Shown here one piece after another: positions 6,304 through 61,133 of a stretch of DNA of 64,000 bases; the first letter of the stretch is position 1, and every line of letters begins with the position of its first letter. The notes below the pieces were generated by a model that did not search any database, was not told the origin of the DNA, and worked only from the letters and a program-made list of their open reading frames with translations. The stretch covers positions 2,728,001-2,792,000 of the forward strand of contig NZ_CP017713.1 in NCBI RefSeq assembly GCF_002706425.1. Direction: 5' to 3'. Position numbers and translations under genes: made by a program. Source of the stretch: Loigolactobacillus coryniformis subsp. coryniformis KCTC 3167 = DSM 20001 (lineage in GTDB: Bacteria > Bacillota > Bacilli > Lactobacillales > Lactobacillaceae).

Positions 6304-6508
6304 TTTTTATCACGATCCTAATTTTTATAATTATCATAGTATATGCTATTTAGTGAGCATAATTCCACCGTCTGCGCCAAAAATAAACATTTTTGTTAAC
6401 TAATGGCGGGTGCAGCCTTTTATATAATATAGTATAATTACGTTATATTAAATATACAAATATTATAACACAGTTAAATGTAAGCGTATTATTTTGGAGG
6501 CAAATTTA

Positions 6509-7372
6509 ATGCAAATTGTTCATATTCATCATCCCTATATTCCTGAAAAACTCACGACCACCCCGTGTGTACTGACGCTAGGTTTTTTTGATGGCGTTCA
6601 TCGTGGTCATCAAGCTGTGATCAAACGGGGTTACACTGCGGCCAAGCAACAACATTTACCGTTAGCAGTGATGACATTCAACCAACATCCCCGCCTGGTT
6701 TTTCGTAAATTAGCATATCCAGAAACAACTTATCTATCGACCCTTAGCCAAAAAGAACAGCTATTAGAACAATTAGGAGTCGCCATTCTGTACGTGATCG
6801 ACTTTACCAGCGCATTTGCCAGCTTAACGCCAGCAACCTTTGTGGAACAATACATTGTCGGTCTGAACGCACAAACCGTGGTCGCTGGTTTTGACTACAC
6901 TTTTGGCAATCAACCGGCGCACGTTATCGACTTAGCGACTTACGCACACAATCGGTTTCAGACATTGATTGTTTCACGGGAAACAGATGCCGCCTTAAAA
7001 ATCAGTTCCAGTCGGATTCGCACTTTATTCGAACACGGTGATCTACAGCAAGCTAATCAGTTGCTTGGCTACGTTTATACCACAACGGCCACCGTTTTGC
7101 CGGGCAGCCATGTGGCCAGTGAGCTACAAGTCGACCCCGCCAGTCGACTACCCATTGCTGGCCAATATAACGCTCGACTTAAATTTGCCGGGCAGTGGTA
7201 TCGGGCGACGATCACTGTTCCCAGGATACACACCGATCAGCGCATCCAGCTAACCAGTAGTGAGGTACCGCAACCTATTTTTGGCGAAACGGTTATTTTA
7301 GCTTGGTTGAACAATCTTGATCAAGCTGAGCAACTACCAGTGAGTAGTCTGGGAGCTTACCCGACGCGCTAA
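6509..7372 (+). CDS. RibF-like FAD synthetase with a degenerate riboflavin kinase domain
   Basis: Residues 1-170 form the FMN adenylyltransferase domain of bifunctional RibF, with the HIGH-like nucleotide-binding motif GFFDGVHRGHQ near residue 25 and VVAGFDYTFG near 125. The C-terminal third corresponds to the riboflavin kinase domain, but I do not find its GxPTAN-type nucleotide motif, so kinase activity is doubtful. This looks like a second, specialised RibF. The ATG at 6509 follows a GGAGG site; a TTG 15 bases upstream overlaps that site and is rejected. It converges on the PAS/ApbE operon, which suggests supply of FAD, the ApbE substrate. No FMN riboswitch is visible upstream. Confidence 0.85.
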   Translation: MQIVHIHHPYIPEKLTTTPCVLTLGFFDGVHRGHQAVIKRGYTAAKQQHLPLAVMTFNQHPRLVFRKLAYPETTYLSTLSQKEQLLEQLGVAILYVIDFTSAFASLTPATFVEQYIVGLNAQTVVAGFDYTFGNQPAHVIDLATYAHNRFQTLIVSRETDAALKISSSRIRTLFEHGDLQQANQLLGYVYTTTATVLPGSHVASELQVDPASRLPIAGQYNARLKFAGQWYRATITVPRIHTDQRIQLTSSEVPQPIFGETVILAWLNNLDQAEQLPVSSLGAYPTR

Positions 7373-7400: not shown

Positions 7401-7438
7401 AGAAGTCCTGCCGTCAAACTAATGACGGCAGGACTTCT
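7401..7438. terminator. Bidirectional terminator between ribF-like and PAS genes
   Basis: A perfect 16-bp inverted repeat (AGAAGTCCTGCCGTCA and its complement) around a 6-base loop, between two converging genes. Confidence 0.9.
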
Positions 7439-7449
7439 ATTTGCTTAGT

Positions 7450-8226
7450 TTAATCGTTGATCGAGGCACCAGACGTTTCATCAACTGATGGTTGTGCCGC
7501 CGGTTTTTCTTCAACCTTTGGTTCATCATCGATCGAGGCGCCAGAAGTTTCATCGACTTTGTCTTCTGGTTTTGCGTTAACGGATGCACTGGAGGCACCA
7601 TCAACAGTTGGTTTGTCCCGTAAGGAAGCCCCCGACATGGCGTCCGGATCATCGACTAATTTTTGGCCCGTTTTTGCTAAGTACCATTTGATCGTTGGCA
7701 TTAAATCAAGCACAAATTCATTGACCCCAGCATAATCGCCGTTTTCATCGTGCATGGCTTTATAGTAATGCATTAAAAAGACATCGGGGCCAGTAAATGG
7801 TACGCGCATTTTCACAATATCCGTTTTTCCAGTCCGCAACAAGTTGATCACTTCTTTAACATGTTCAACGGCCCGATCAGGATGGACGGCCGACAATGGA
7901 TCACCAGCTTGCTTTGGATAGCGCGGTGCTAACATTTCATCATGCGGTGCCATATTGTTGTAATACAAGAACTGATTATTTTCATCAGCGTAGGTCAATT
8001 CCATTGGCATCGAATTCAAGAAATAGTTTAACTGATTGACCGTCAAAACACCACGATCCAATTTAACGTAATCATCGCCTTCGGCCGCATGCGTTTTAGC
8101 CGCCGCTTGTTCAACCCAATCGTCAGCGTTCATATCAACGCCTTCGATGGTCGCCCTACCTTTACCTGAGGCCGTTAGATCTTCAGCTGCCGCACCCGTT
8201 TGGTTATTTTTTTCCGTTTCACTCAT
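7450..8226 (-). CDS. Cytoplasmic PAS-domain protein with tandem ApbE-type flavinylation motifs
   Basis: 258 residues, no signal peptide and no membrane segment. Residues 62-180 look like a single PAS domain (MELTYADENNQFLYYNN, then MHYYKAMHDENGDYAGVNEF). The tail from 190 is a low-complexity acidic linker carrying repeated short motifs: DAMSGAS (195-201), DGASSAS (209-215), DETSGAS (225-231) and DETSGAS (249-255). Three match the ApbE target consensus Dxx[S/T]GA[S/T] exactly and the second has Ser for Gly. ApbE attaches FMN covalently to the Ser/Thr of such sites. The apbE gene lies 22 bases upstream in the same operon. I infer a multi-FMN redox carrier or flavin-based sensor; PAS assignment is by eye. 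The start follows an AGAAGGGAG site. Confidence 0.8.
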   Translation of the reverse strand: MSETEKNNQTGAAAEDLTASGKGRATIEGVDMNADDWVEQAAAKTHAAEGDDYVKLDRGVLTVNQLNYFLNSMPMELTYADENNQFLYYNNMAPHDEMLAPRYPKQAGDPLSAVHPDRAVEHVKEVINLLRTGKTDIVKMRVPFTGPDVFLMHYYKAMHDENGDYAGVNEFVLDLMPTIKWYLAKTGQKLVDDPDAMSGASLRDKPTVDGASSASVNAKPEDKVDETSGASIDDEPKVEEKPAAQPSVDETSGASIND

Positions 8227-8248
8227 TTTTAAATACTCCCTTCTAAAT

Positions 8249-9169
8249 TTACAATTCGTGTGTCATTGAGGAATAAACTTCCCCCGTTTTAGTGATCACG
8301 ATGCCTTCGATCTCTGGTAATTCAGCTAATTTAGCCATGATCTTTTGCCGTGGTTGGCCGAATAAGCGCGTCGTCCACAGCTCACCAGTCAATGATCTAT
8401 CTGAAATGATCGTCAAACTAGCTAAATCAGTGGCCAACGGATAGCCGGTTTGCGGATCAAGGATATGGTGGTAGGTGTGCTGGCCAACGGTCAAGCTCCG
8501 CTCATAAATACCGGAAGTGACGACCGATTTATTTTGCACACGGACCACTGTCTTGTAGTAGCCCCGGGGCCGCTGCGGATCTTGGATACCGATCCGCCAC
8601 TGGTGATCAGTATGCTGTAACATTGGCCCTAATGTGACCACATTGCCACCTAAATTGACCAGCGCTGAGGTGACGCCTTGCTGCTTCAAATAGGTGATCA
8701 GCAAATCAGCGATATAACCCTTAGCCAGCGCACCGAGATCGAGCGCCATCCCTTTTTCTTGTAAAAACACCGTATGGGCAGCATCATCTAGCAAAATTTT
8801 ATGTGGATCAATTTTAGCTAACGCCTGTTTGATCTCCACCGGGCTAGGTAGTTTGGCGTCGGTAAAGCCGATCCGCCAAGTTTGCACCAAAGGCCCGATC
8901 GCAATATTCAGCTTGCTGTCAGTGGCTACACTATAGTGATAGCCGATTTTGATCAAGTCATATAACTCTGGCGCTACCGCCACTGGCTTGATTCCCGCTT
9001 GATGGGTCACTGCCATCAATTCTGAGGTATCCGCATTAGCGCTAAAACGATGTTCATATAATTTGAGGCGGCGCACCATTTCGTCTAACAACGGCTCCGG
9101 GGTGGCGGCGGTAATTTGTAATCTGATGATCGTGCCCATCAAATGAATTTCTCGTGATGCTTGTTCCAT
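8249..9169 (-). CDS. apbE: ApbE-family FAD:protein FMN transferase, cytoplasmic form
   Basis: Transfers FMN from FAD to Ser/Thr of target proteins. Family motifs are present: ALDLGALAKGYIAD near residue 155, ALVNLGGNVVTLG near 180, HHILDPQTGYPL near 240. The usual catalytic/metal segment near the C-terminus reads DRSLTGELWTTRLF. There is no lipoprotein signal or N-terminal hydrophobic stretch, unlike the exported ApbE of extracellular electron transfer loci, so the enzyme should act in the cytosol. The ATG ending at 9169 follows an AAGGGAG site; an upstream in-frame start lacks one. It is co-transcribed with the PAS protein that has matching target motifs, a convincing enzyme-substrate pair. 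Confidence 0.93.
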   Translation of the reverse strand: MEQASREIHLMGTIIRLQITAATPEPLLDEMVRRLKLYEHRFSANADTSELMAVTHQAGIKPVAVAPELYDLIKIGYHYSVATDSKLNIAIGPLVQTWRIGFTDAKLPSPVEIKQALAKIDPHKILLDDAAHTVFLQEKGMALDLGALAKGYIADLLITYLKQQGVTSALVNLGGNVVTLGPMLQHTDHQWRIGIQDPQRPRGYYKTVVRVQNKSVVTSGIYERSLTVGQHTYHHILDPQTGYPLATDLASLTIISDRSLTGELWTTRLFGQPRQKIMAKLAELPEIEGIVITKTGEVYSSMTHEL

Positions 9170-9204
9170 AATTGTGGCTCCCTTGCTTGACATCCACCCG
9201 AAAA

Positions 9205-9243
9205 CAAAAGGGTTTGGAACCTGATTTGTCCAAACCCTTTTAC
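9205..9243 (-). terminator. Terminator of pyruvate oxidase
   Basis: A strong hairpin (AAAAGGGTTTGGA pairing with TCCAAACCCTTTT) just downstream of the pox stop codon, ending in a T run on the minus strand. It also insulates the apbE operon. Confidence 0.88.
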
Positions 9244-9259
9244 CTTAAATACAGTTAGC

Positions 9260-11020
9260 TTAGAGCTTGCCTGCTTCAGCGTCTTTTAGATAAGCACTAA
9301 ATGGTTTCAAGTCTTCTGCTTGGTATTTCGTGACAAATTCTTTGATCTTGTCCGCATCTTGCCAAGCTGGATCGATGAACATATGTTGCGTTGTCATTGG
9401 CATCTCGTGGGTCAATTTAACGTCGATCAACACTGGGCCATCCGCTGCAACAGCCGCCTTAAAGACTTTGTCGATATCATCAAATGTCCGGATCGTATAT
9501 CCTTTAACGTTCATCCCTTCAGCGACTTTAGCCCAATCATTATCTGGTAAATCAACCCCAGATAATGGTTGATGTGTATCATCGCGCTGTTCAGCTTCAA
9601 TGAAACCTAACGTTTCGTTACTGAACACAATGTTGATCGTCTTCAAATTGTACTTAGCCGCCGTCAATAATTCTTGTGACATCATGGCAAAGCCACCATC
9701 ACCACTTAAACTGAAGACTTGGCGATCAGGGAAAGCCACCTTAGCCCCAACCGCAGCTGGTAAGCCATAACCCATGGTAGCGTACTGGCCTGAAGTCGTC
9801 CATTTTTGGGTGGTCTTTAAGTCGAGCAACCGCATGACGTTAATATTGACGTTCCCAACATCGATACCAAAGACCGCATCATCGTCAGCGTATTTATTGA
9901 TCGCCGCAAAAACAGGTTCTGGCCGTAATGGTTCTGATTTATCATTTTCAAAGCTAGCTTGCCAAGCCCGTTCGTCCTTATGGTTAGCTAAAGCTGCCCG
10001 GTAGAACGGTGTTGGTTCCAATTCATCGCCTTTGGCTACTAAAGCGGCTAAAGCCGTTTTAGCATCGGCCAAAATTGGCAAGTCGATATTGTGCCGTTTA
10101 CCCAATTTTTCATTGTCGGTATCAATTTGAATGACTTTTGCCCGTGGGTTGAATAGGAAGATACTAAATGGTGAATCGTTACCGACCCACAAAATCAAGT
10201 CAGTATTGAACCCTAATTCAGTACCGGATTTACCAGCAGGCCGCCCAGTTGAACCCATATAAGCTGGGTAGGTATCTTCAACGATCCCTTTAGCGATCAC
10301 GGTTGAAACTAATGGTAATTTGAATTTCTCGGAAACCGCTTTTAATTCAGCACCGGCTTTTTTCGCCCCAACACCGAAGTAAACGATCGGCTTTTTAGCT
10401 GCCTTGATCAATTCAACGGCTTTATCGATCGCCACTGGATCTGGTTGTGGGTAAAGTGGGGCCAAATGATTCTTCGCTGTGGAGATGAAGTTGTCTTTGA
10501 TCTCTGTCCAACCTAAATTTTTAGGGATGATCACAACGGAAACCCCATTATACTTGTACGCTTGGCGAATCGCTGTATCAATCAACCGTGGTAAGCCTTC
10601 AGCGGTAGTTGCAGTGCGATTGAAAACCGCTACATCATCAAAAATTGGGCCTTCATCGATTGCTTGGAAGAAGTCAATGTTCATCCGTGCCTGTGGGACT
10701 TGAGCAACCAACGCCAAAACTGGTGTATGGTCATGTTTAGCATCGTATAACCCGTTTAATAAATGCACGGCACCAGGACCAGCGGAACCCATTGTAACCG
10801 CCAATTTACCCGTTAATTTTGATTCAGCAGCGGCAGCCAAGGCCCCTGCTTCTTCATGCCGTACTTGAACAAATTTCATGGTATCCTTGCGATCATAAAG
10901 CGCATTCATTACATCGTCAAATGAACCACCTGGATAACCGAAAATATGGTCAACGCCCCAATCTTCGATTACTTTCAATGCTGCGTCTGCTGCTTTGATC
11001 GTCTTTACTGCTTCAGCCAT
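9260..11020 (-). CDS. pox: Pyruvate oxidase (acetyl-phosphate and H2O2 forming)
   Basis: A thiamine diphosphate- and FAD-dependent enzyme of 586 residues converting pyruvate, phosphate and O2 to acetyl phosphate, CO2 and hydrogen peroxide. Seen: the N-terminal PYR domain with GYPGGSFDDVMNAL and VRHEEAGALAAAAE (catalytic Glu), a middle FAD domain, and the C-terminal PP domain with the ThDP motif starting at GDGGFAMM and ending SNETLGFI. The ATG ending at 11020 follows AGGAGG; an adjacent TTG is less likely. The promoter overlaps a cre-like box, consistent with CcpA repression known for lactobacillus pox genes. It is divergent from ndh, with an FNR-type palindrome in between. Confidence 0.95.
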   Translation of the reverse strand: MAEAVKTIKAADAALKVIEDWGVDHIFGYPGGSFDDVMNALYDRKDTMKFVQVRHEEAGALAAAAESKLTGKLAVTMGSAGPGAVHLLNGLYDAKHDHTPVLALVAQVPQARMNIDFFQAIDEGPIFDDVAVFNRTATTAEGLPRLIDTAIRQAYKYNGVSVVIIPKNLGWTEIKDNFISTAKNHLAPLYPQPDPVAIDKAVELIKAAKKPIVYFGVGAKKAGAELKAVSEKFKLPLVSTVIAKGIVEDTYPAYMGSTGRPAGKSGTELGFNTDLILWVGNDSPFSIFLFNPRAKVIQIDTDNEKLGKRHNIDLPILADAKTALAALVAKGDELEPTPFYRAALANHKDERAWQASFENDKSEPLRPEPVFAAINKYADDDAVFGIDVGNVNINVMRLLDLKTTQKWTTSGQYATMGYGLPAAVGAKVAFPDRQVFSLSGDGGFAMMSQELLTAAKYNLKTINIVFSNETLGFIEAEQRDDTHQPLSGVDLPDNDWAKVAEGMNVKGYTIRTFDDIDKVFKAAVAADGPVLIDVKLTHEMPMTTQHMFIDPAWQDADKIKEFVTKYQAEDLKPFSAYLKDAEAGKL

Positions 11021-14455: not shown

Positions 14456-16810
14456 ATGGTCAAAAACAACTATACATACAAGCGGCTAACTAAGGTTTTA
14501 GTGGGCACTTTAGTAACCGTTTTCTCAATTCTGATCGCTGGGGGCTTGTTAATCTTCAAAAACGAAGCCCCACGGCCGGCAAAAATCGTGACCACAGCAG
14601 GGGAAACATTGGTCACCCGCAACGAATTACTTAGCGGGCAAGCCGTTTATGAAAAATACGGCTTAGCCGATTACGGTACTTATCTCGGCAATGGATCGTA
14701 TTTAGGCCCTGATTACACCGCACAAAGTTTACACATTTATTTACAAGGGATGGATAATTACTATGCACACAAGTTTTATCAGCATTCATTCAAATCGTTA
14801 AGTACCTACAAACGTGATGCGATCAAGGATAAGGTGCGTCATGAAATCAAGATCAATCGTTATTCAGCAGCTAAAAAAACACTGACGCTGACCGCGGCAC
14901 AAACGGCGGGCTATCAACATCTGACCAAGTACTACCGGCATGAATTCATCAATAATCCGCGCCAAGCCGGCCTGCCTGAAAATATGATCAACACAAAAAA
15001 GACGGACGCCTTTATGTACAAAGGCAACAAGGTCAACCACTTAGCTAGTTTCTTTTTCTGGGGTGCTTGGATGTCTTCGACTAATCGCCCCGGGCAGAAT
15101 TACTCCTATACCAACAATTGGCCCTACGATTTAGATGCGGGCAATACAATGTCATCCGAGTCCCTGATCTGGACGGCAATTAGCGTCGCTTTATTGGTGG
15201 CCGGCGTCGGTGTTATTATCTACTACCAGCGTCGTTACGCCTTTGATATGGAGGCGACCTACGCCAGCGCAGCGGAAATGCCGGCTTTAGACACTGATTT
15301 TGCGATCACGCAAAGTCAACGCAAAATTGCGAAGTTCTTCCTAGTCGTCGTTGGCCTCTTCTTGGTGCAGATCCTACTTGGTGAATTAATGGCCCATTAT
15401 TACGTGGAAAATGAGTTCTTCGGCATTCCGCTACAAAATATTTGGCCATTTAATTTAGCCAAAGCATGGCATTTACAGTTAGTCATCTTCTGGGTGGCGA
15501 CTACTTGGTTGGCGACCGGGATCTATATCGTTCCGCGGGTATTACGCCGCGAGCCCAAGCGTCAAGGCTTATTGGTCGATCTATTATTTTGGGCACTGAT
15601 CATTGTCGTCGTCGGCAGTATGCTCGGTGAATGGGCCTCGACATTAGGACTACTGAACCATAATTGGTGGTTATTTGGTCAGTTTGGTTGGGAATATATT
15701 GAATTAGGAAAATTCTGGCAGATCCTCTTCATTATCGGTATGGCATTGTGGGTCATCATTTTGATGCGCGGCTTTATTCCAGCGATGAAACGACCGGATA
15801 ATTACGATCGCAAACGGCTGATCACCCTACTTTTTTGTGGTGCGATCGCCATTCCTGCGTTCTACTTGGCCTCACTATTTATTCTGCCAAATTCCCATGT
15901 GACCTTCGCCGATTATTGGCGTTGGTGGATCGTTCATTTGTGGGTCGAAGGGATCTTTGAATCTTTTGCCGTGATCTTGATCGGTTATTTGATGGTCGAT
16001 CTCAAATTGACCACTACCCGTTCAACGGTTCGCGCGCTATACTTCCAGCTGACCTTATTGCTTGGTTCCGGTGTCGTCGGCATGGGACACCATTATTTCT
16101 GGGAAGGCGATCATTCGATCTGGTTAGCTCTAGGCGCTTGTTTCTCCGCCTTGGAAGTCGTGCCATTATGTTTATTATTGTGGGAAGCGTACACCCATTA
16201 CCGCGTCTTCAAAGACAGCGCGATTGCCTTTCCGTACAAAGGTACCTTCGTTTTCTTGATGTGGACTGGCGTTTGGAACGCGATCGGTGCTGGTGCACTC
16301 GGCTTTATTATCAATGCACCAGCGATCAATTACTTTGAACACGGTACGCAGTGGACTTCCGCCCACGCCCATGGTTCAATGGCCGGCGTTTATGGCATGT
16401 TCTCAATCGCGATCATGCTTTACGCTCTACGCAATATTTCACAACAAAAAATTTGGACCCCGAAAATGGACAAGTTGGTCAATTGGTCTGCCTGGTTAAT
16501 GAATATTGGTCTAGCCGGTATGGTATTCATCACTTTGTTACCAGCTGGCTACTTACAGCTAAAGGATGCGCTAGAACATGGTTACTGGCACGCACGCTTA
16601 TTATCGTTTTATCAAAGCAGCCCAGTCTTCGAAATTTTGTGGGCACGGATCGTACCTGACCTTGTCTTCACCGCCGGTGTGATCATTTTGATCGTGATCG
16701 TGGTCAAAGTCTTGCGCAACTTAAAACCGGCTGATAACGCAAAGGCCGCCGCGCATTTTGCTGCGGTGACGGCTGAAGAAGTTAAAGCCGACGCCAAACA
16801 AAATAATTAA
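14456..16810 (+). CDS. norB: Quinol-dependent nitric oxide reductase (qNOR)
   Basis: An integral membrane heme-copper-superfamily enzyme reducing 2 NO to N2O with electrons from quinol. The 784 residues match the single-chain qNOR type: an N-terminal membrane anchor (residues 13-33), a soluble cytochrome-c-like domain without heme motif, then about 12 membrane helices. Conserved pieces include HLWVEGIFE (metal His and Glu), GHHYFW, and SAHAHGSMAGVYG near residue 640. The start ATG at 14456 follows AAAGGAG. Electrons could come from NDH-2 and the D-lactate-type oxidase via menaquinone. It implies NO detoxification or anaerobic electron disposal. No NO-sensing regulator is adjacent. Confidence 0.95.
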   Translation: MVKNNYTYKRLTKVLVGTLVTVFSILIAGGLLIFKNEAPRPAKIVTTAGETLVTRNELLSGQAVYEKYGLADYGTYLGNGSYLGPDYTAQSLHIYLQGMDNYYAHKFYQHSFKSLSTYKRDAIKDKVRHEIKINRYSAAKKTLTLTAAQTAGYQHLTKYYRHEFINNPRQAGLPENMINTKKTDAFMYKGNKVNHLASFFFWGAWMSSTNRPGQNYSYTNNWPYDLDAGNTMSSESLIWTAISVALLVAGVGVIIYYQRRYAFDMEATYASAAEMPALDTDFAITQSQRKIAKFFLVVVGLFLVQILLGELMAHYYVENEFFGIPLQNIWPFNLAKAWHLQLVIFWVATTWLATGIYIVPRVLRREPKRQGLLVDLLFWALIIVVVGSMLGEWASTLGLLNHNWWLFGQFGWEYIELGKFWQILFIIGMALWVIILMRGFIPAMKRPDNYDRKRLITLLFCGAIAIPAFYLASLFILPNSHVTFADYWRWWIVHLWVEGIFESFAVILIGYLMVDLKLTTTRSTVRALYFQLTLLLGSGVVGMGHHYFWEGDHSIWLALGACFSALEVVPLCLLLWEAYTHYRVFKDSAIAFPYKGTFVFLMWTGVWNAIGAGALGFIINAPAINYFEHGTQWTSAHAHGSMAGVYGMFSIAIMLYALRNISQQKIWTPKMDKLVNWSAWLMNIGLAGMVFITLLPAGYLQLKDALEHGYWHARLLSFYQSSPVFEILWARIVPDLVFTAGVIILIVIVVKVLRNLKPADNAKAAAHFAAVTAEEVKADAKQNN

Positions 16811-30568: not shown

Positions 30569-31804
30569 CGCGCGTTTTATAATCAAGTTAGCCAATTAGA
30601 TCCGGCTAATTGAAAAAATAAAAAACACCAAGACAAATCTCTGTTATCATTGATGTTCCAACACAAAAATGAAAGAGGTTATTGTCTTGATGCAAGAACA
30701 GAATACCACAGTCCGAGAAAAAGGTCACCACCTAACTTCATTTGAGCGCGGCAGAATCGCCACGCTACACAGCCAAGGATACTCTAACCGCGCAATTGCT
30801 AGAGTTATCGGCGTTTGTCATCAAACAATCAGTAATGAGCTACGCCGTGGTGAGATCGACCAAGTTAAAAAAGTGAACGGTCAACGGCAATATCACCGCG
30901 AGTACTCGCCAGAAGCGGCACAGGCCAAATACGAAGCTAACCGAATGTCCTGTCATCGACCTTTGAAACTCGCTGGTGTCGCTGACTTTATCCACTACTT
31001 TACGGCCCATTTGCACCAAGACGGTTGGTCGCCTGATGCCGCGGTGGGCCGTGCTAAACTTGAAGGCTTATATCAACCTGAGGAGATGGTTTCGACCAAG
31101 ACGTTATACCACTATATCGATGCGCAACTACTTGAAGTCCGTAATCTTGATCTGCTCGAAAAAAACCGGCGCCGCACCAAACACCACCATTCACCCAAGC
31201 ATAAGCGTCTGGCCGGACGAAGTATCGAAGAGCGACCTAAAAGTATTGATCAGCGCCAAGAGTTCGGTCACTTTGAGTTGGATACCGTAGTCGGTAAACG
31301 TAATGGCCAAGAAAGTGTCATTCTAACGCTGATCGAGCGCCAATCTCGCTGTCAGATCCTGCGTTTGATTGATGGCCGTGACGCCGATTCAGTCAACTAC
31401 GAACTGGCTAAGATCTGCCAAGAATATGGACACATCATGAAGTCCGTTACCGCTGACAACGGGGCAGAATTCGCAGCGGCGGGGACGGTGCTTGACGGGG
31501 TTGCCGACCTTTATTATGCCCACCCTTACCGCTCTTCAGAACGAGGCACAAATGAGGCGCATAATCGAATGATCCGTCGTGATGTGCCTAAGGGCCTGTC
31601 CATGGATACTTTGGGCCCTAGTGATATCCAAGCAGTGGAAGCCAAGCTAAACAACTTACCACGCCGGCAGTCAGGTTACCAAACCCCAAAAGAGCTTTTC
31701 TCCGCTGCCGCTGGCTAAAGATTGAATCTTTAAAATATGAATATCAATGAAAATACTGTCTTACCGGGATTTATTGCGTGGCTAATTTGTTCTTGCAATT
31801 TGGG
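30569..31804 (+). mobile_element. IS30-family element, identical copy A
   Basis: 1,236 bp, from CGCGCGTTTTATAATCAAG to TTCTTGCAATTTGGG. Copy B at 59898-61133 is the same length, with an identical transposase, in opposite orientation. The right flank is the 3' part of a small gene whose 5' part lies beside copy B, so recombination between the copies is indicated. Confidence 0.9.
30669..31718 (+). CDS. IS30-family transposase, copy A
   Basis: 349 residues, intact. Helix-turn-helix SNRAIARVIGVCHQTISNEL near residue 35; DDE core with FELDTVVGKR, TADNGAEF and SERGTNEAHNRMIRR. Same protein as the one at 59984-61033. Start ATG at 30669. Confidence 0.93.
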   Translation: MKEVIVLMQEQNTTVREKGHHLTSFERGRIATLHSQGYSNRAIARVIGVCHQTISNELRRGEIDQVKKVNGQRQYHREYSPEAAQAKYEANRMSCHRPLKLAGVADFIHYFTAHLHQDGWSPDAAVGRAKLEGLYQPEEMVSTKTLYHYIDAQLLEVRNLDLLEKNRRRTKHHHSPKHKRLAGRSIEERPKSIDQRQEFGHFELDTVVGKRNGQESVILTLIERQSRCQILRLIDGRDADSVNYELAKICQEYGHIMKSVTADNGAEFAAAGTVLDGVADLYYAHPYRSSERGTNEAHNRMIRRDVPKGLSMDTLGPSDIQAVEAKLNNLPRRQSGYQTPKELFSAAAG

Positions 31805-35950: not shown

Positions 35951-37746
35951 GGTACTGTCAAACGTACCCGATTTTGTCTAGTTTTAATTATTGTTTCTAA
36001 TGGTTTTGTATTATCTAAGTGAAATTAAAAAACACCCGGACCAATTCTTCTGTTATCCTTGGTGTGCAACCAACAAGAATTCCAAGAAAGAAGGAGATCC
36101 GAGTGCTTACACCATTATTAACTTATTTAGTCCAAATAATCAAGTTCCAACGTGCATTGATCATCTTTTTGTTGGCCCAGCTGATTGATATTTTTGACCA
36201 TTCGCGCTTGCCCAGCACCGATAAACCAACCTATAAACGCTTTAATCAATTTCAAGTTGACGATAAATTACCAATTTTAGCAGCCGATATTGGTCCAGAA
36301 TCACTTAATTATGAGCAACTGATCATTGACTACATGACCAAAACCGGCAAAGATCTAAAACCAATTCGGCGCCGACAAGGCACCGTGATCACGTTCCAGA
36401 ACCAACGTTGCCCACGCTGTAATGCCCCAAGCGACTATCTATACGCTAATAACGGTAAAGGTAATCAGCTTAAGTGTAAGATCTGCGCTTTTAGCTTCCA
36501 AAATGGTGATGCGCAGAAGAAGAAAGCGGTGGTACTTCGTTGCCCATACTGCCAACATCGATTGGAAGCTCATCACCACCGTAGTAACTTCGATGTGTTA
36601 CGTTGTCCTAATGACCAATGTTCATTTCGTTTAAAACAAATCAAGCAGTTATCCGTAGCTGAAGCCAAACAATTCAAGGAACAGCCATCTAGCTTCAAAG
36701 TACGCTACACTTTCCGTAACTTTAAATTCGATCTCAAAGGCTTAGCGGCTAGTTCGCCAGTTCAAGCCAAGGTCGATTTGAGTAAGATCCAAGCCAGCCC
36801 TGAGGTTTTAGGGCTTGTCCTGACCTATCACATTAACTATGGCCTGTCGGCCCGTCGTACCGCAGCCATCATGTACGACGTTCACGGCGTTAAGATCTCC
36901 CACCAAACCATTCACAACTACGAAGAGGCGGTAGCGACCGTTATTCGACCATTCTGGGCTAACTATCCTTACGAACTTTCCAACCAATTAGTTGGTGATG
37001 AGACTTACGTCAAGGTCAAAGGTAAGTGGAACTATATCTTTTACTTTTACGACGCGGTTAAAAAGCTAATTCTAGCCGACTATATAACGCCCAACCGCAC
37101 AACTGAATCAGCGGTCGTTGCCATCAATCAAGTCCTACAGAAGATGTCCGAACGTCCAGCCGACCTACAGTTCGTAGTCGACGCCAATCCCATTTATCAA
37201 GTAGCACAACTTTATTTTGCTCAACAAGGGATCAATTTTAAAATCAAGCAAGTAGTAGGGTTGACCAACAAAGATCCAATCAGTAAAGAGTATCGTTTCT
37301 TGAAACAAACAATTGAGCGTTTAAACCGTAGTTTTAAGGGCAATTATCGGTCGGCCACTGGTTTTAACTCACCAACCGGTTCAGCCAGTTATACCGCCTT
37401 ATATTCAGCGGCTTATAACTTTTTACGCCCGCACGAAGCGCTAGATTATAAGGTGCCGGTACACCTACCAGAGCTGGACAATAAACCGCGCATGTACGAT
37501 AAATGGTTGGCCTTGATTGATCTAGCACAAAGCCAATTACCAACTGCATAAGCAAGCATTAGTTTAGGACTAGAATCAAACTTGTCTAAGCTGACTTTGT
37601 GTTGCCTCGAAACGGGCGATTGGCCGGATTAATACTGTGCGCGTACAGAACTAACCAACTAGACCACTCAATCCTTAAGTCGATTTCTACAGTTGCATCT
37701 ACACCACCTTCTGAACCACGGTTTTCATAGAACTTTTGACGTTACC
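35951..37746 (+). mobile_element. 1,796-bp IS with DDE/zinc-ribbon transposase, copy 1
   Basis: The ends are inverted repeats (GGTACTGTCAAACGTACC and the complement of GAACTTTTGACGTTACC). Flanked by a perfect 8-bp target duplication TTTTTGTG (35943-35950 and 37747-37754). Copy 2 at 44699-46494 has the same length and an identical protein. Inserted between PTS IIC and IIB genes. Confidence 0.92.
36103..37551 (+). CDS. Transposase of the 1,796-bp IS, copy 1
   Basis: 482 residues from a GTG preceded by AAGGAG. The frame is open further upstream, but without a ribosome site. It has N-terminal zinc-ribbon-like cysteine pairs (CPRCNAP...CKIC; CPYC...CPNDQC), a helix-turn-helix region (LSARRTAAIMYDVHGVKISH), and a DDE core resembling the IS6 group: GDETYVKVKGKWNYIFYFYD, FVVDANPIYQ and KQTIERLNRSFKG. 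IS6 members are about half this size. I cannot assign the IS family with certainty. Confidence 0.88.
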   Translation: MLTPLLTYLVQIIKFQRALIIFLLAQLIDIFDHSRLPSTDKPTYKRFNQFQVDDKLPILAADIGPESLNYEQLIIDYMTKTGKDLKPIRRRQGTVITFQNQRCPRCNAPSDYLYANNGKGNQLKCKICAFSFQNGDAQKKKAVVLRCPYCQHRLEAHHHRSNFDVLRCPNDQCSFRLKQIKQLSVAEAKQFKEQPSSFKVRYTFRNFKFDLKGLAASSPVQAKVDLSKIQASPEVLGLVLTYHINYGLSARRTAAIMYDVHGVKISHQTIHNYEEAVATVIRPFWANYPYELSNQLVGDETYVKVKGKWNYIFYFYDAVKKLILADYITPNRTTESAVVAINQVLQKMSERPADLQFVVDANPIYQVAQLYFAQQGINFKIKQVVGLTNKDPISKEYRFLKQTIERLNRSFKGNYRSATGFNSPTGSASYTALYSAAYNFLRPHEALDYKVPVHLPELDNKPRMYDKWLALIDLAQSQLPTA

Positions 37747-44698: not shown

Positions 44699-46494
44699 GG
44701 TAACGTCAAAAGTTCTATGAAAACCGTGGTTCAGAAGGTGGTGTAGATGCAACTGTAGAAATCGACTTAAGGATTGAGTGGTCTAGTTGGTTAGTTCTGT
44801 ACGCGCACAGTATTAATCCGGCCAATCGCCCGTTTCGAGGCAACACAAAGTCAGCTTAGACAAGTTTGATTCTAGTCCTAAACTAATGCTTGCTTATGCA
44901 GTTGGTAATTGGCTTTGTGCTAGATCAATCAAGGCCAACCATTTATCGTACATGCGCGGTTTATTGTCCAGCTCTGGTAGGTGTACCGGCACCTTATAAT
45001 CTAGCGCTTCGTGCGGGCGTAAAAAGTTATAAGCCGCTGAATATAAGGCGGTATAACTGGCTGAACCGGTTGGTGAGTTAAAACCAGTGGCCGACCGATA
45101 ATTGCCCTTAAAACTACGGTTTAAACGCTCAATTGTTTGTTTCAAGAAACGATACTCTTTACTGATTGGATCTTTGTTGGTCAACCCTACTACTTGCTTG
45201 ATTTTAAAATTGATCCCTTGTTGAGCAAAATAAAGTTGTGCTACTTGATAAATGGGATTGGCGTCGACTACGAACTGTAGGTCGGCTGGACGTTCGGACA
45301 TCTTCTGTAGGACTTGATTGATGGCAACGACCGCTGATTCAGTTGTGCGGTTGGGCGTTATATAGTCGGCTAGAATTAGCTTTTTAACCGCGTCGTAAAA
45401 GTAAAAGATATAGTTCCACTTACCTTTGACCTTGACGTAAGTCTCATCACCAACTAATTGGTTGGAAAGTTCGTAAGGATAGTTAGCCCAGAATGGTCGA
45501 ATAACGGTCGCTACCGCCTCTTCGTAGTTGTGAATGGTTTGGTGGGAGATCTTAACGCCGTGAACGTCGTACATGATGGCTGCGGTACGACGGGCCGACA
45601 GGCCATAGTTAATGTGATAGGTCAGGACAAGCCCTAAAACCTCAGGGCTGGCTTGGATCTTACTCAAATCGACCTTGGCTTGAACTGGCGAACTAGCCGC
45701 TAAGCCTTTGAGATCGAATTTAAAGTTACGGAAAGTGTAGCGTACTTTGAAGCTAGATGGCTGTTCCTTGAATTGTTTGGCTTCAGCTACGGATAACTGC
45801 TTGATTTGTTTTAAACGAAATGAACATTGGTCATTAGGACAACGTAACACATCGAAGTTACTACGGTGGTGATGAGCTTCCAATCGATGTTGGCAGTATG
45901 GGCAACGAAGTACCACCGCTTTCTTCTTCTGCGCATCACCATTTTGGAAGCTAAAAGCGCAGATCTTACACTTAAGCTGATTACCTTTACCGTTATTAGC
46001 GTATAGATAGTCGCTTGGGGCATTACAGCGTGGGCAACGTTGGTTCTGGAACGTGATCACGGTGCCTTGTCGGCGCCGAATTGGTTTTAGATCTTTGCCG
46101 GTTTTGGTCATGTAGTCAATGATCAGTTGCTCATAATTAAGTGATTCTGGACCAATATCGGCTGCTAAAATTGGTAATTTATCGTCAACTTGAAATTGAT
46201 TAAAGCGTTTATAGGTTGGTTTATCGGTGCTGGGCAAGCGCGAATGGTCAAAAATATCAATCAGCTGGGCCAACAAAAAGATGATCAATGCACGTTGGAA
46301 CTTGATTATTTGGACTAAATAAGTTAATAATGGTGTAAGCACTCGGATCTCCTTCTTTCTTGGAATTCTTGTTGGTTGCACACCAAGGATAACAGAAGAA
46401 TTGGTCCGGGTGTTTTTTAATTTCACTTAGATAATACAAAACCATTAGAAACAATAATTAAAACTAGACAAAATCGGGTACGTTTGACAGTACC
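44699..46494 (-). mobile_element. 1,796-bp IS with DDE/zinc-ribbon transposase, copy 2
   Basis: Same length and ends as copy 1, opposite orientation. Perfect 8-bp target duplication GAAATAAT at 44691-44698 and 46495-46502. Confidence 0.92.
44894..46342 (-). CDS. Transposase of the 1,796-bp IS, copy 2
   Basis: Identical in sequence to the protein at 36103-37551; 482 residues from the GTG behind AAGGAG. The lack of divergence between copies indicates recent transposition. Confidence 0.88.
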   Translation of the reverse strand: MLTPLLTYLVQIIKFQRALIIFLLAQLIDIFDHSRLPSTDKPTYKRFNQFQVDDKLPILAADIGPESLNYEQLIIDYMTKTGKDLKPIRRRQGTVITFQNQRCPRCNAPSDYLYANNGKGNQLKCKICAFSFQNGDAQKKKAVVLRCPYCQHRLEAHHHRSNFDVLRCPNDQCSFRLKQIKQLSVAEAKQFKEQPSSFKVRYTFRNFKFDLKGLAASSPVQAKVDLSKIQASPEVLGLVLTYHINYGLSARRTAAIMYDVHGVKISHQTIHNYEEAVATVIRPFWANYPYELSNQLVGDETYVKVKGKWNYIFYFYDAVKKLILADYITPNRTTESAVVAINQVLQKMSERPADLQFVVDANPIYQVAQLYFAQQGINFKIKQVVGLTNKDPISKEYRFLKQTIERLNRSFKGNYRSATGFNSPTGSASYTALYSAAYNFLRPHEALDYKVPVHLPELDNKPRMYDKWLALIDLAQSQLPTA

Positions 46495-59897: not shown

Positions 59898-61133
59898 CCC
59901 AAATTGCAAGAACAAATTAGCCACGCAATAAATCCCGGTAAGACAGTATTTTCATTGATATTCATATTTTAAAGATTCAATCTTTAGCCAGCGGCAGCGG
60001 AGAAAAGCTCTTTTGGGGTTTGGTAACCTGACTGCCGGCGTGGTAAGTTGTTTAGCTTGGCTTCCACTGCTTGGATATCACTAGGGCCCAAAGTATCCAT
60101 GGACAGGCCCTTAGGCACATCACGACGGATCATTCGATTATGCGCCTCATTTGTGCCTCGTTCTGAAGAGCGGTAAGGGTGGGCATAATAAAGGTCGGCA
60201 ACCCCGTCAAGCACCGTCCCCGCCGCTGCGAATTCTGCCCCGTTGTCAGCGGTAACGGACTTCATGATGTGTCCATATTCTTGGCAGATCTTAGCCAGTT
60301 CGTAGTTGACTGAATCGGCGTCACGGCCATCAATCAAACGCAGGATCTGACAGCGAGATTGGCGCTCGATCAGCGTTAGAATGACACTTTCTTGGCCATT
60401 ACGTTTACCGACTACGGTATCCAACTCAAAGTGACCGAACTCTTGGCGCTGATCAATACTTTTAGGTCGCTCTTCGATACTTCGTCCGGCCAGACGCTTA
60501 TGCTTGGGTGAATGGTGGTGTTTGGTGCGGCGCCGGTTTTTTTCGAGCAGATCAAGATTACGGACTTCAAGTAGTTGCGCATCGATATAGTGGTATAACG
60601 TCTTGGTCGAAACCATCTCCTCAGGTTGATATAAGCCTTCAAGTTTAGCACGGCCCACCGCGGCATCAGGCGACCAACCGTCTTGGTGCAAATGGGCCGT
60701 AAAGTAGTGGATAAAGTCAGCGACACCAGCGAGTTTCAAAGGTCGATGACAGGACATTCGGTTAGCTTCGTATTTGGCCTGTGCCGCTTCTGGCGAGTAC
60801 TCGCGGTGATATTGCCGTTGACCGTTCACTTTTTTAACTTGGTCGATCTCACCACGGCGTAGCTCATTACTGATTGTTTGATGACAAACGCCGATAACTC
60901 TAGCAATTGCGCGGTTAGAGTATCCTTGGCTGTGTAGCGTGGCGATTCTGCCGCGCTCAAATGAAGTTAGGTGGTGACCTTTTTCTCGGACTGTGGTATT
61001 CTGTTCTTGCATCAAGACAATAACCTCTTTCATTTTTGTGTTGGAACATCAATGATAACAGAGATTTGTCTTGGTGTTTTTTATTTTTTCAATTAGCCGG
61101 ATCTAATTGGCTAACTTGATTATAAAACGCGCG
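59898..61133 (-). mobile_element. IS30-family element, identical copy B
   Basis: 1,236 bp, inverted relative to copy A. Read in the direction of its transposase, the left flank is the 5' part of the split 71-codon gene, and the right flank is unrelated to copy A's left flank. Confidence 0.9.
59984..61033 (-). CDS. IS30-family transposase, copy B
   Basis: 349 residues, identical to the product at 30669-31718, with the same helix-turn-helix and DDE motifs. Intact, so either copy could supply transposase. Confidence 0.93.
   Translation of the reverse strand: MKEVIVLMQEQNTTVREKGHHLTSFERGRIATLHSQGYSNRAIARVIGVCHQTISNELRRGEIDQVKKVNGQRQYHREYSPEAAQAKYEANRMSCHRPLKLAGVADFIHYFTAHLHQDGWSPDAAVGRAKLEGLYQPEEMVSTKTLYHYIDAQLLEVRNLDLLEKNRRRTKHHHSPKHKRLAGRSIEERPKSIDQRQEFGHFELDTVVGKRNGQESVILTLIERQSRCQILRLIDGRDADSVNYELAKICQEYGHIMKSVTADNGAEFAAAGTVLDGVADLYYAHPYRSSERGTNEAHNRMIRRDVPKGLSMDTLGPSDIQAVEAKLNNLPRRQSGYQTPKELFSAAAG

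Follow-up and report, generated by a model that had tools for sequence, protein, structure and literature searches.

Flavinylation by ApbE has been studied mostly outside the cytoplasm. FMN_red proteins with unstructured C-terminal tails carrying one or two motifs are flavinylated by their cognate ApbE, as described by Huang et al. (2024, PMC11334425). Co-expression and alanine changes demonstrated in that work that the tail flavinylation needs the Ser/Thr residue, and a model placed the tail sites near the flavin-binding site; the flavinylated examples include Lactococcus lactis WP_021723379.1 and L. taiwanensis WP_205872264.1. The same source describes multi-flavinylated FMN-bind proteins with up to 13 sites, which are generally predicted to be extracytosolic. 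A cytosolic ApbE is known together with a soluble fumarate reductase in Klebsiella pneumoniae, a 7-residue tag at a terminus is enough for flavinylation, and a Gly-to-Ala change in the motif lowered flavinylation in a Klebsiella test (all from PMC12052999). Each ingredient is known: ApbE in the cytosol, flavinylation of FMN_red tails, and proteins with several flavins.

The locus described here lies in a window of 64,000 nucleotides from Loigolactobacillus coryniformis subsp. coryniformis KCTC 3167 = DSM 20001 (contig NZ_CP017713.1, positions 2,728,001 to 2,792,000) and encodes a 258-aa PAS protein next to an ApbE. Like the FMN_red proteins of Huang et al., as described, the PAS protein has an unstructured, motif-bearing C-terminal tail and a cognate apbE; unlike them, it lacks FMN_red and has a PAS_10 domain and four sites, where theirs number one or two. 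WP_021723379.1 and WP_205872264.1 are described there as FMN_red plus an extension. The presence of several predicted FMN sites in one protein is shared with the multi-flavinylated FMN-bind proteins of that source, from which the PAS protein differs in having neither an FMN_bind match nor an export signal. As in the Klebsiella pair outlined in PMC12052999, the ApbE is signal-less and its target cytosolic, whereas the Klebsiella target is a fumarate reductase; the host genome contains a pair similar to the latter elsewhere. DUF438-Hemerythrin-PAS_10 proteins share the PAS_10 domain, but identity as a DUF438 protein was rejected, Pfam giving no DUF438 or Hemerythrin match in the 258-aa protein. 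The earlier note knew of no description of a PAS domain combined with such a motif tail and its own ApbE. In the literature covered, mostly titles and abstract openings with few subscription papers, no description of either the FMN_red:PAS_10:multi-motif tail or the reductase-less PAS:tail form was recognised; flavinylated FMN_red tails as such were already published (PMC11334425).

On balance, the reductase-less cytosolic PAS:tail protein is probably a multi-FMN substrate of ApbE that serves as a soluble relay or redox partner and originated through loss of FMN_red. This reading builds on the observed anatomy, family, absence of reductase parts, selection and ApbE co-occurrence, each presented below. 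The family suggests cytoplasmic flavinylation in many Lactobacillales, with several FMNs on one disordered tail, and the short form, which keeps ApbE and the flavin tail without a reductase, offers a direct way to ask what the tail does alone.

The apbE-PAS locus and its products

The features of the locus, followed by two from elsewhere in the host genome, are as follows (evidence in brackets).

7450..8226, minus strand: 258-aa PAS_10 protein whose C-terminal tail holds several motifs, predicted to be flavinylated by ApbE (ORF, Pfam, orthologues)
7702..8031, minus strand: PAS_10 domain, residues 66-175 (Pfam, AlphaFold, Foldseek)
7450..7647, minus strand: disordered tail, residues 194-258 plus stop, four 7-residue motifs (sequence, pLDDT, shuffles)
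8249..9169, minus strand: apbE, encoding a 306-aa FAD:protein FMN transferase of the cytosol (PF02424, FmnB match, triad columns)
7401..7438, minus strand: terminator-like hairpin 3' of the PAS gene, seen on both strands (16-bp stem, fold test)
9196..9262, minus strand: hairpin-holding stretch between pyruvate oxidase and apbE (fold test)
6494..7372, plus strand: second FAD synthetase of the genome, matching FAD_syn alone, convergent neighbour of apbE-PAS (Pfam)
Locus L106, 5581-8046 and 4645-5577, minus strand: fumarate-reductase-like FMN_red:FAD_binding_2:FMN_bind protein, 821 aa, with DAVSGAS, and a signal-less ApbE
Locus L107, 8112-9206 (genome position ~1.446 Mb), plus strand: lipoprotein-like third ApbE of the host genome

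The gap of 22 bases between apbE and the downstream PAS gene (8227-8248), reported in the earlier note, was confirmed. A ribosome-binding site recognised by eye, AGAAGGGAG, lies 9 nt 5' of the PAS-gene ATG at 8226. Although the longest apbE ORF begins at 9193, the start given in the earlier note, the ATG at 9169, was preferred on account of its superior ribosome-binding site (AAGGGAG, 8 nt upstream; also by eye).

The tail motifs of the PAS protein are, in order, DAMSGAS, DGASSAS, DETSGAS and DETSGAS. Three of the four follow the strict pattern Dxx[ST]GA[ST], at 7625-7644, 7535-7554 and 7463-7482 on the DNA, whereas DGASSAS deviates by having Ser for Gly at position 5; the three exact motifs claimed earlier are therefore present, along with one near-match. 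A chance cluster was rejected on the basis of tail shuffles and a genome-wide DNA motif scan. When the 73-aa tail was shuffled 500,000 times, three strict motifs never arose and two arose once. The degenerate DNA motif was found 29 times in the 2.95-Mb genome, compared with 26 matches for a reversed-pattern control, and among these 29 the apbE-PAS locus is the sole place with three matches within 200 bases.

PAS_10 (PF13596) was detected in the 258-aa protein with an E value of 2.5e-25 and 89.6 bits, against a cut-off of 22.1, and was the only domain that Pfam detected in it; FMN_red (PF03358) and FMN_bind were not found. AlphaFold predicted a confident PAS fold, residues 21-190 falling in blocks of 82-94, and assigned residues 194-258 a pLDDT below 50, indicative of an unstructured extension that carries the motifs. 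The closest Foldseek match of the PAS domain was 2qkp (E 5e-14, TM 0.88 by target length); the best solved PAS_10 relatives, 2qkp and 3cax, are titled as uncharacterized or domain-only entries. A hydropathy scan revealed no signal peptide in either the PAS protein or the neighbouring ApbE. The lack of an export signal asserted for both proteins was thereby upheld, and an exported redox protein was rejected.

Relatives with and without a reductase domain

Orthologues were searched for in 251 genomes of the family, of which 117 matched at E 0.001 or better. From these, 83 strong-orthologue genomes (E 1.2e-49 or better) were picked by hand, and the weaker matches were dropped because tail-less PAS_10 proteins occur among them. 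The 80 named loci discussed below, the top-ranking ones among 427 confirmed, lean to close relatives, the nearest being that of Loigolactobacillus jiayinensis, with 85% identity in the PAS gene.

In 71 of these 80 named loci (best 80 of 427) the PAS:tail part is fused to FMN_red, in eight it is short, and one is cut by a contig end. The fused partner is an NADPH-dependent FMN reductase domain, and in the long relatives the PAS domain lies between reductase and tail. A stand-alone FMN_red gene is located beside or before the fusion in 70 of the 71 fused loci of this set. Pfam confirmed both FMN_red and PAS_10 in all three fused proteins tested (L055, L108 and L110), and the fused protein found matches at E 1e-10 or better in 207 of 295 genomes order-wide, a count that includes single-domain matches. 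The predicted structure of one long form (L122) was weak, with a mean pLDDT of 64.6. The earlier proposal of a soluble protein that has several ApbE sites and lies next to a cytosolic ApbE of its own is well supported by comparison. The relatives add that this protein matches the C-terminal portion of FMN_red:PAS_10:tail, a widespread flavoenzyme, without the reductase.

Of the eight Loigolactobacillus genomes searched, six have the short form as an intact ORF, four of these with apbE next to it, and two have the full form. In L. bifermentans (L127), of the same genus, the order is apbE, FMN_red, FMN_red:PAS:tail, and the layout of apbE followed by PAS:tail equals this full cluster minus both reductase pieces. 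We infer that the short form resulted from loss of the FMN_red domain and the companion FMN_red gene, and not from gain. Other arrangements of the same parts were also observed: FMN_red and PAS:tail as two overlapping ORFs in one genome (G234, L083), an FMN_red with four tail motifs adjoining a separate PAS_10 gene in another family of the order (G923, L274), and FMN_red:tail ORFs without a PAS match adjoining apbE at L272 (checked with Pfam), L273, L275 and further loci. A tree of PAS segments alone, with 97 rows from 99 chosen loci and identical segments entered once, requires at least seven changes between the long and short labels. One of these stems from the contig-cut row (L163, which was not counted as a short form but was labelled short in the tree), and three are forced by well-supported branches. 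The reductase-less form has therefore arisen repeatedly or moved between species.

In Atopostipes suicloacalis (L167, 535 onward) a complete cluster of apbE, FMN_red and FMN_red:PAS:tail is preceded by a separate PAS:tail protein of 230 aa with two motifs. PAS_10 proteins that are more distant, likewise short, and have a tail holding one or two strict motifs were also seen (L101 2772-3308, L104 6081-6617, L073 208-867 and L109 6548-7264) and represent additional PAS:tail branches of the family.

The only FMN_red of the matching family in the host genome is that of the 821-aa fumarate-reductase-like fusion; Pfam found one more distant FMN_red and another below the cut-off. Separate FMN_red homologues of 187-221 aa do occur elsewhere in G170 and G033, genomes of the same genus that also carry the short form. 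Given the absence of FMN_red from the short protein and this sole fusion of the family in the genome, electrons must come in trans. In the proposed mechanism, an ancestral FMN_red:PAS_10:tail flavoenzyme would have lost its FMN_red domain and the companion FMN_red gene. ApbE would take FAD and load one FMN on each of three or four Dxx[ST][GS]AS motifs, as a phospho-ester on the last Ser of the motif, and the flavins so tethered would take up and give off electrons in trans, with PAS_10 as the docking, dimerising or sensing part. Covalent flavinylation of the tail is likely and the relay role tentative; the sensory or electron-relay PAS head envisaged earlier is a guess. Possible, if doubtful, is the fuller picture in which a reductase-free protein, with three to four covalent FMNs on a swinging, disordered tail attached to PAS, serves as a flavin wire in solution or as a PAS sensor loaded with flavin, and evolved repeatedly from a reductase by discarding its catalytic domain and retaining the tethered cofactors.

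We judge a soluble relay or redox partner to be the most likely role and a flavin-loaded PAS sensor the next. In such a self-loaded sensor, one tethered FMN would fold back and occupy the PAS_10 pocket, or dock on a partner, and the protein would report redox or flavin status, while the remaining sites raise the local flavin concentration. The confirmed PAS fold, its many invariant residues, the location of the first motif directly after the last PAS helix, and the occurrence of an FAD-PAS (NifL 2gj3) and LOV domains among the weak Foldseek matches are consistent with this role. These matches are generic, however, with FMN/FAD PAS domains scoring no better than heme or other PAS domains; Pfam found no output domain in the 258-aa protein, and the FMN_red of the long form offers an obvious flavin site instead. 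The sensor is accordingly considered unlikely.

Conservation of the tail and the partner ApbE

The occurrence of motif repeats in orthologues, on which the earlier note had made its claim depend, was borne out. Among 97 relatives, at least two strict motifs were found in 69, at least one in 82 and none in 15, and all 97 have at least one relaxed motif. The relaxed repeats number one to six, with a median period of 17 residues, and in 96 of the 97 only 1-5 residues separate the final motif from the C-terminus. Six relatives (L075, L085, L091, L093, L135 and L187) have relaxed-only tails, such as DxxASAS, DTGASAS and DxxSSAS, and four of the six adjoin ApbEs at least 54% identical to the 306-aa ApbE. 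One 227-aa PAS orthologue (G124; L101 11334-12017, minus strand) lacks the motif tail, unlike its close relatives. In a phylum-wide PAS_10 search, 113 of 398 genomes matched; the best 30 loci were fetched, two of which were family members, and the tail motif was absent from the 28 tail-less PAS_10 loci among these 30. Four tail-less controls all contained PAS_10; DUF438 and Hemerythrin exceeded the cut-off in three, and the fourth gave only a weak Hemerythrin match.

The short form is under purifying selection: comparison with L. jiayinensis gives a dN/dS of 0.049 and comparison with L. binensis one of 0.052, both rough because synonymous sites are near saturation (pS ~0.67-0.70). In the alignment with these two species the motifs are retained while the linkers drift and change length, and the PAS domain contains many invariant residues. 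ApbE is present in all 83 strong-orthologue genomes, compared with 68 of the 168 others (Fisher p 1.8e-24, uncorrected for kinship). In flanks reaching at most 5 kb, a few of them truncated at contig ends, apbE was found in 37 of the 80 named loci (best 80 of 427).

The 306-aa ApbE matches PF02424 with an E value of 1.2e-76 and 258.2 bits, and its closest solved structure is 7esa (E 2.6e-62). This entry was taken to be Listeria FmnB, since its sequence is also that of 7F39, the structure that a review lists for FmnB; the review reports the triad of FmnB as Asp301-Ser257-His273, plus Arg262 (PMC12052999). By residue count on the 7esa alignment, the 306-aa ApbE keeps the triad Ser and His and the Arg, whereas Glu replaces the triad Asp. 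Across 68 aligned ApbEs this column holds Glu in 65, Asp in two and Lys in one; the alignment left out L192, a duplicate of the window, and ApbEs shorter than 260 aa, and from the loci numbered below 112 it kept the ApbEs of nine. Both Asp-type proteins are the two other ApbEs of the host genome. One of them adjoins the FMN_red:FAD_binding_2:FMN_bind protein with its DAVSGAS site. In the lipoprotein-like ApbE, the Ser, Arg and His columns are occupied by Ala, Lys and Tyr, and by these replacements it is possibly not a transferase.

Position 5 of the motif may vary with the type of ApbE nearby: Gly occupies it in 35 of 84 repeats by nearer ApbEs and 31 of 39 by farther ones (window included), and in 168 of 196 repeats with no ApbE in view, these counts being raw and corresponding to only three independent pairs on the tree. 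The natural SAS-for-GAS motifs and the Glu-for-Asp ApbE are useful for understanding and engineering flavin tags. The Glu in place of the triad Asp, the deviating DGASSAS, the 15 of 97 relatives without a strict motif and the orthologue at L101 without a motif tail count against an ApbE-substrate relay. The strongly relaxed motifs of some relatives also agree with a second alternative, in which the resemblance to the motif is not accompanied by flavinylation and the acidic, disordered tail has a different nature, such as that of a phosphorylation tail. We hold this to be improbable in view of the linkage to apbE, the placement of motifs at the terminus, and the flavinylation of FMN_red tails published in PMC11334425.

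Gene neighbourhood and remaining readings

The FAD synthetase gene convergent to the apbE-PAS pair is the second in the genome. No flavokinase domain was detected in its product among Pfam matches up to E 10, while the other RibF-like copy of the host genome, beside a truB-like gene at ~1.42 Mb, is bifunctional, with a flavokinase. The second synthetase might supply FAD to ApbE, which is only suggestive. With its FAD_syn-only paralogue convergent to the pair and several sites on a small protein, the locus can also be read as a flavin-homeostasis unit of ApbE and FAD synthetase, the tail storing FMN as a reservoir. A RibF relative lies beside the cluster in L. jiayinensis and L. binensis as well, but these are merely two of the 80 named loci (best 80 of 427). 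We know of no enzyme that releases phospho-ester FMN. A reservoir therefore appears slightly less probable still than a non-flavinylated tail. Least probable is a decaying, functionless remnant of the FMN_red:PAS:tail enzyme, for which the missing reductase, the scattering of short forms on the tree (at least seven changes, three forced) and the orthologue at L101 without a motif tail could be cited, but against which stand the ORF intact in six of eight Loigolactobacillus genomes, dN/dS of ~0.05, motifs kept amid drifting linkers and apbE adjacent in four of six short-form genomes.

Together, apbE and the PAS gene probably form a transcription unit of their own. The hairpin at 7401..7438 has a fold z of -10.8, and none of 200 shuffles was equally good. 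The stretch at 9196..9262 has a fold z of -2.64, with four of 200 shuffles equally good, and the terminator scan made no call there. A promoter and terminator scan of the region gave no excess over shuffles (four against 3.4 expected, and two against 2.6). A conserved operon with pyruvate oxidase was rejected on account of the hairpin between that gene and apbE and the rarity of a pyruvate oxidase relative near the cluster, which was seen in four of the 80 named loci (best 80 of 427), those of L. jiayinensis, L. binensis, L. rennini and Pediococcus stilesii.

Near the pyruvate oxidase gene and an NADH-dehydrogenase-like gene, the window also encodes a 784-aa membrane protein (14456-16810, plus strand) that, by eye, looks like a quinol-type nitric oxide reductase. 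Transposase-like ORFs, likewise recognised by eye, are numerous between 25000 and 61000 of the window. They include two apparently identical copies of 510 aa, at 36019-37551 (plus strand) and 44894-46426 (minus strand), and two apparently identical copies of 349 aa, at 30669-31718 (plus strand) and 59984-61033 (minus strand).
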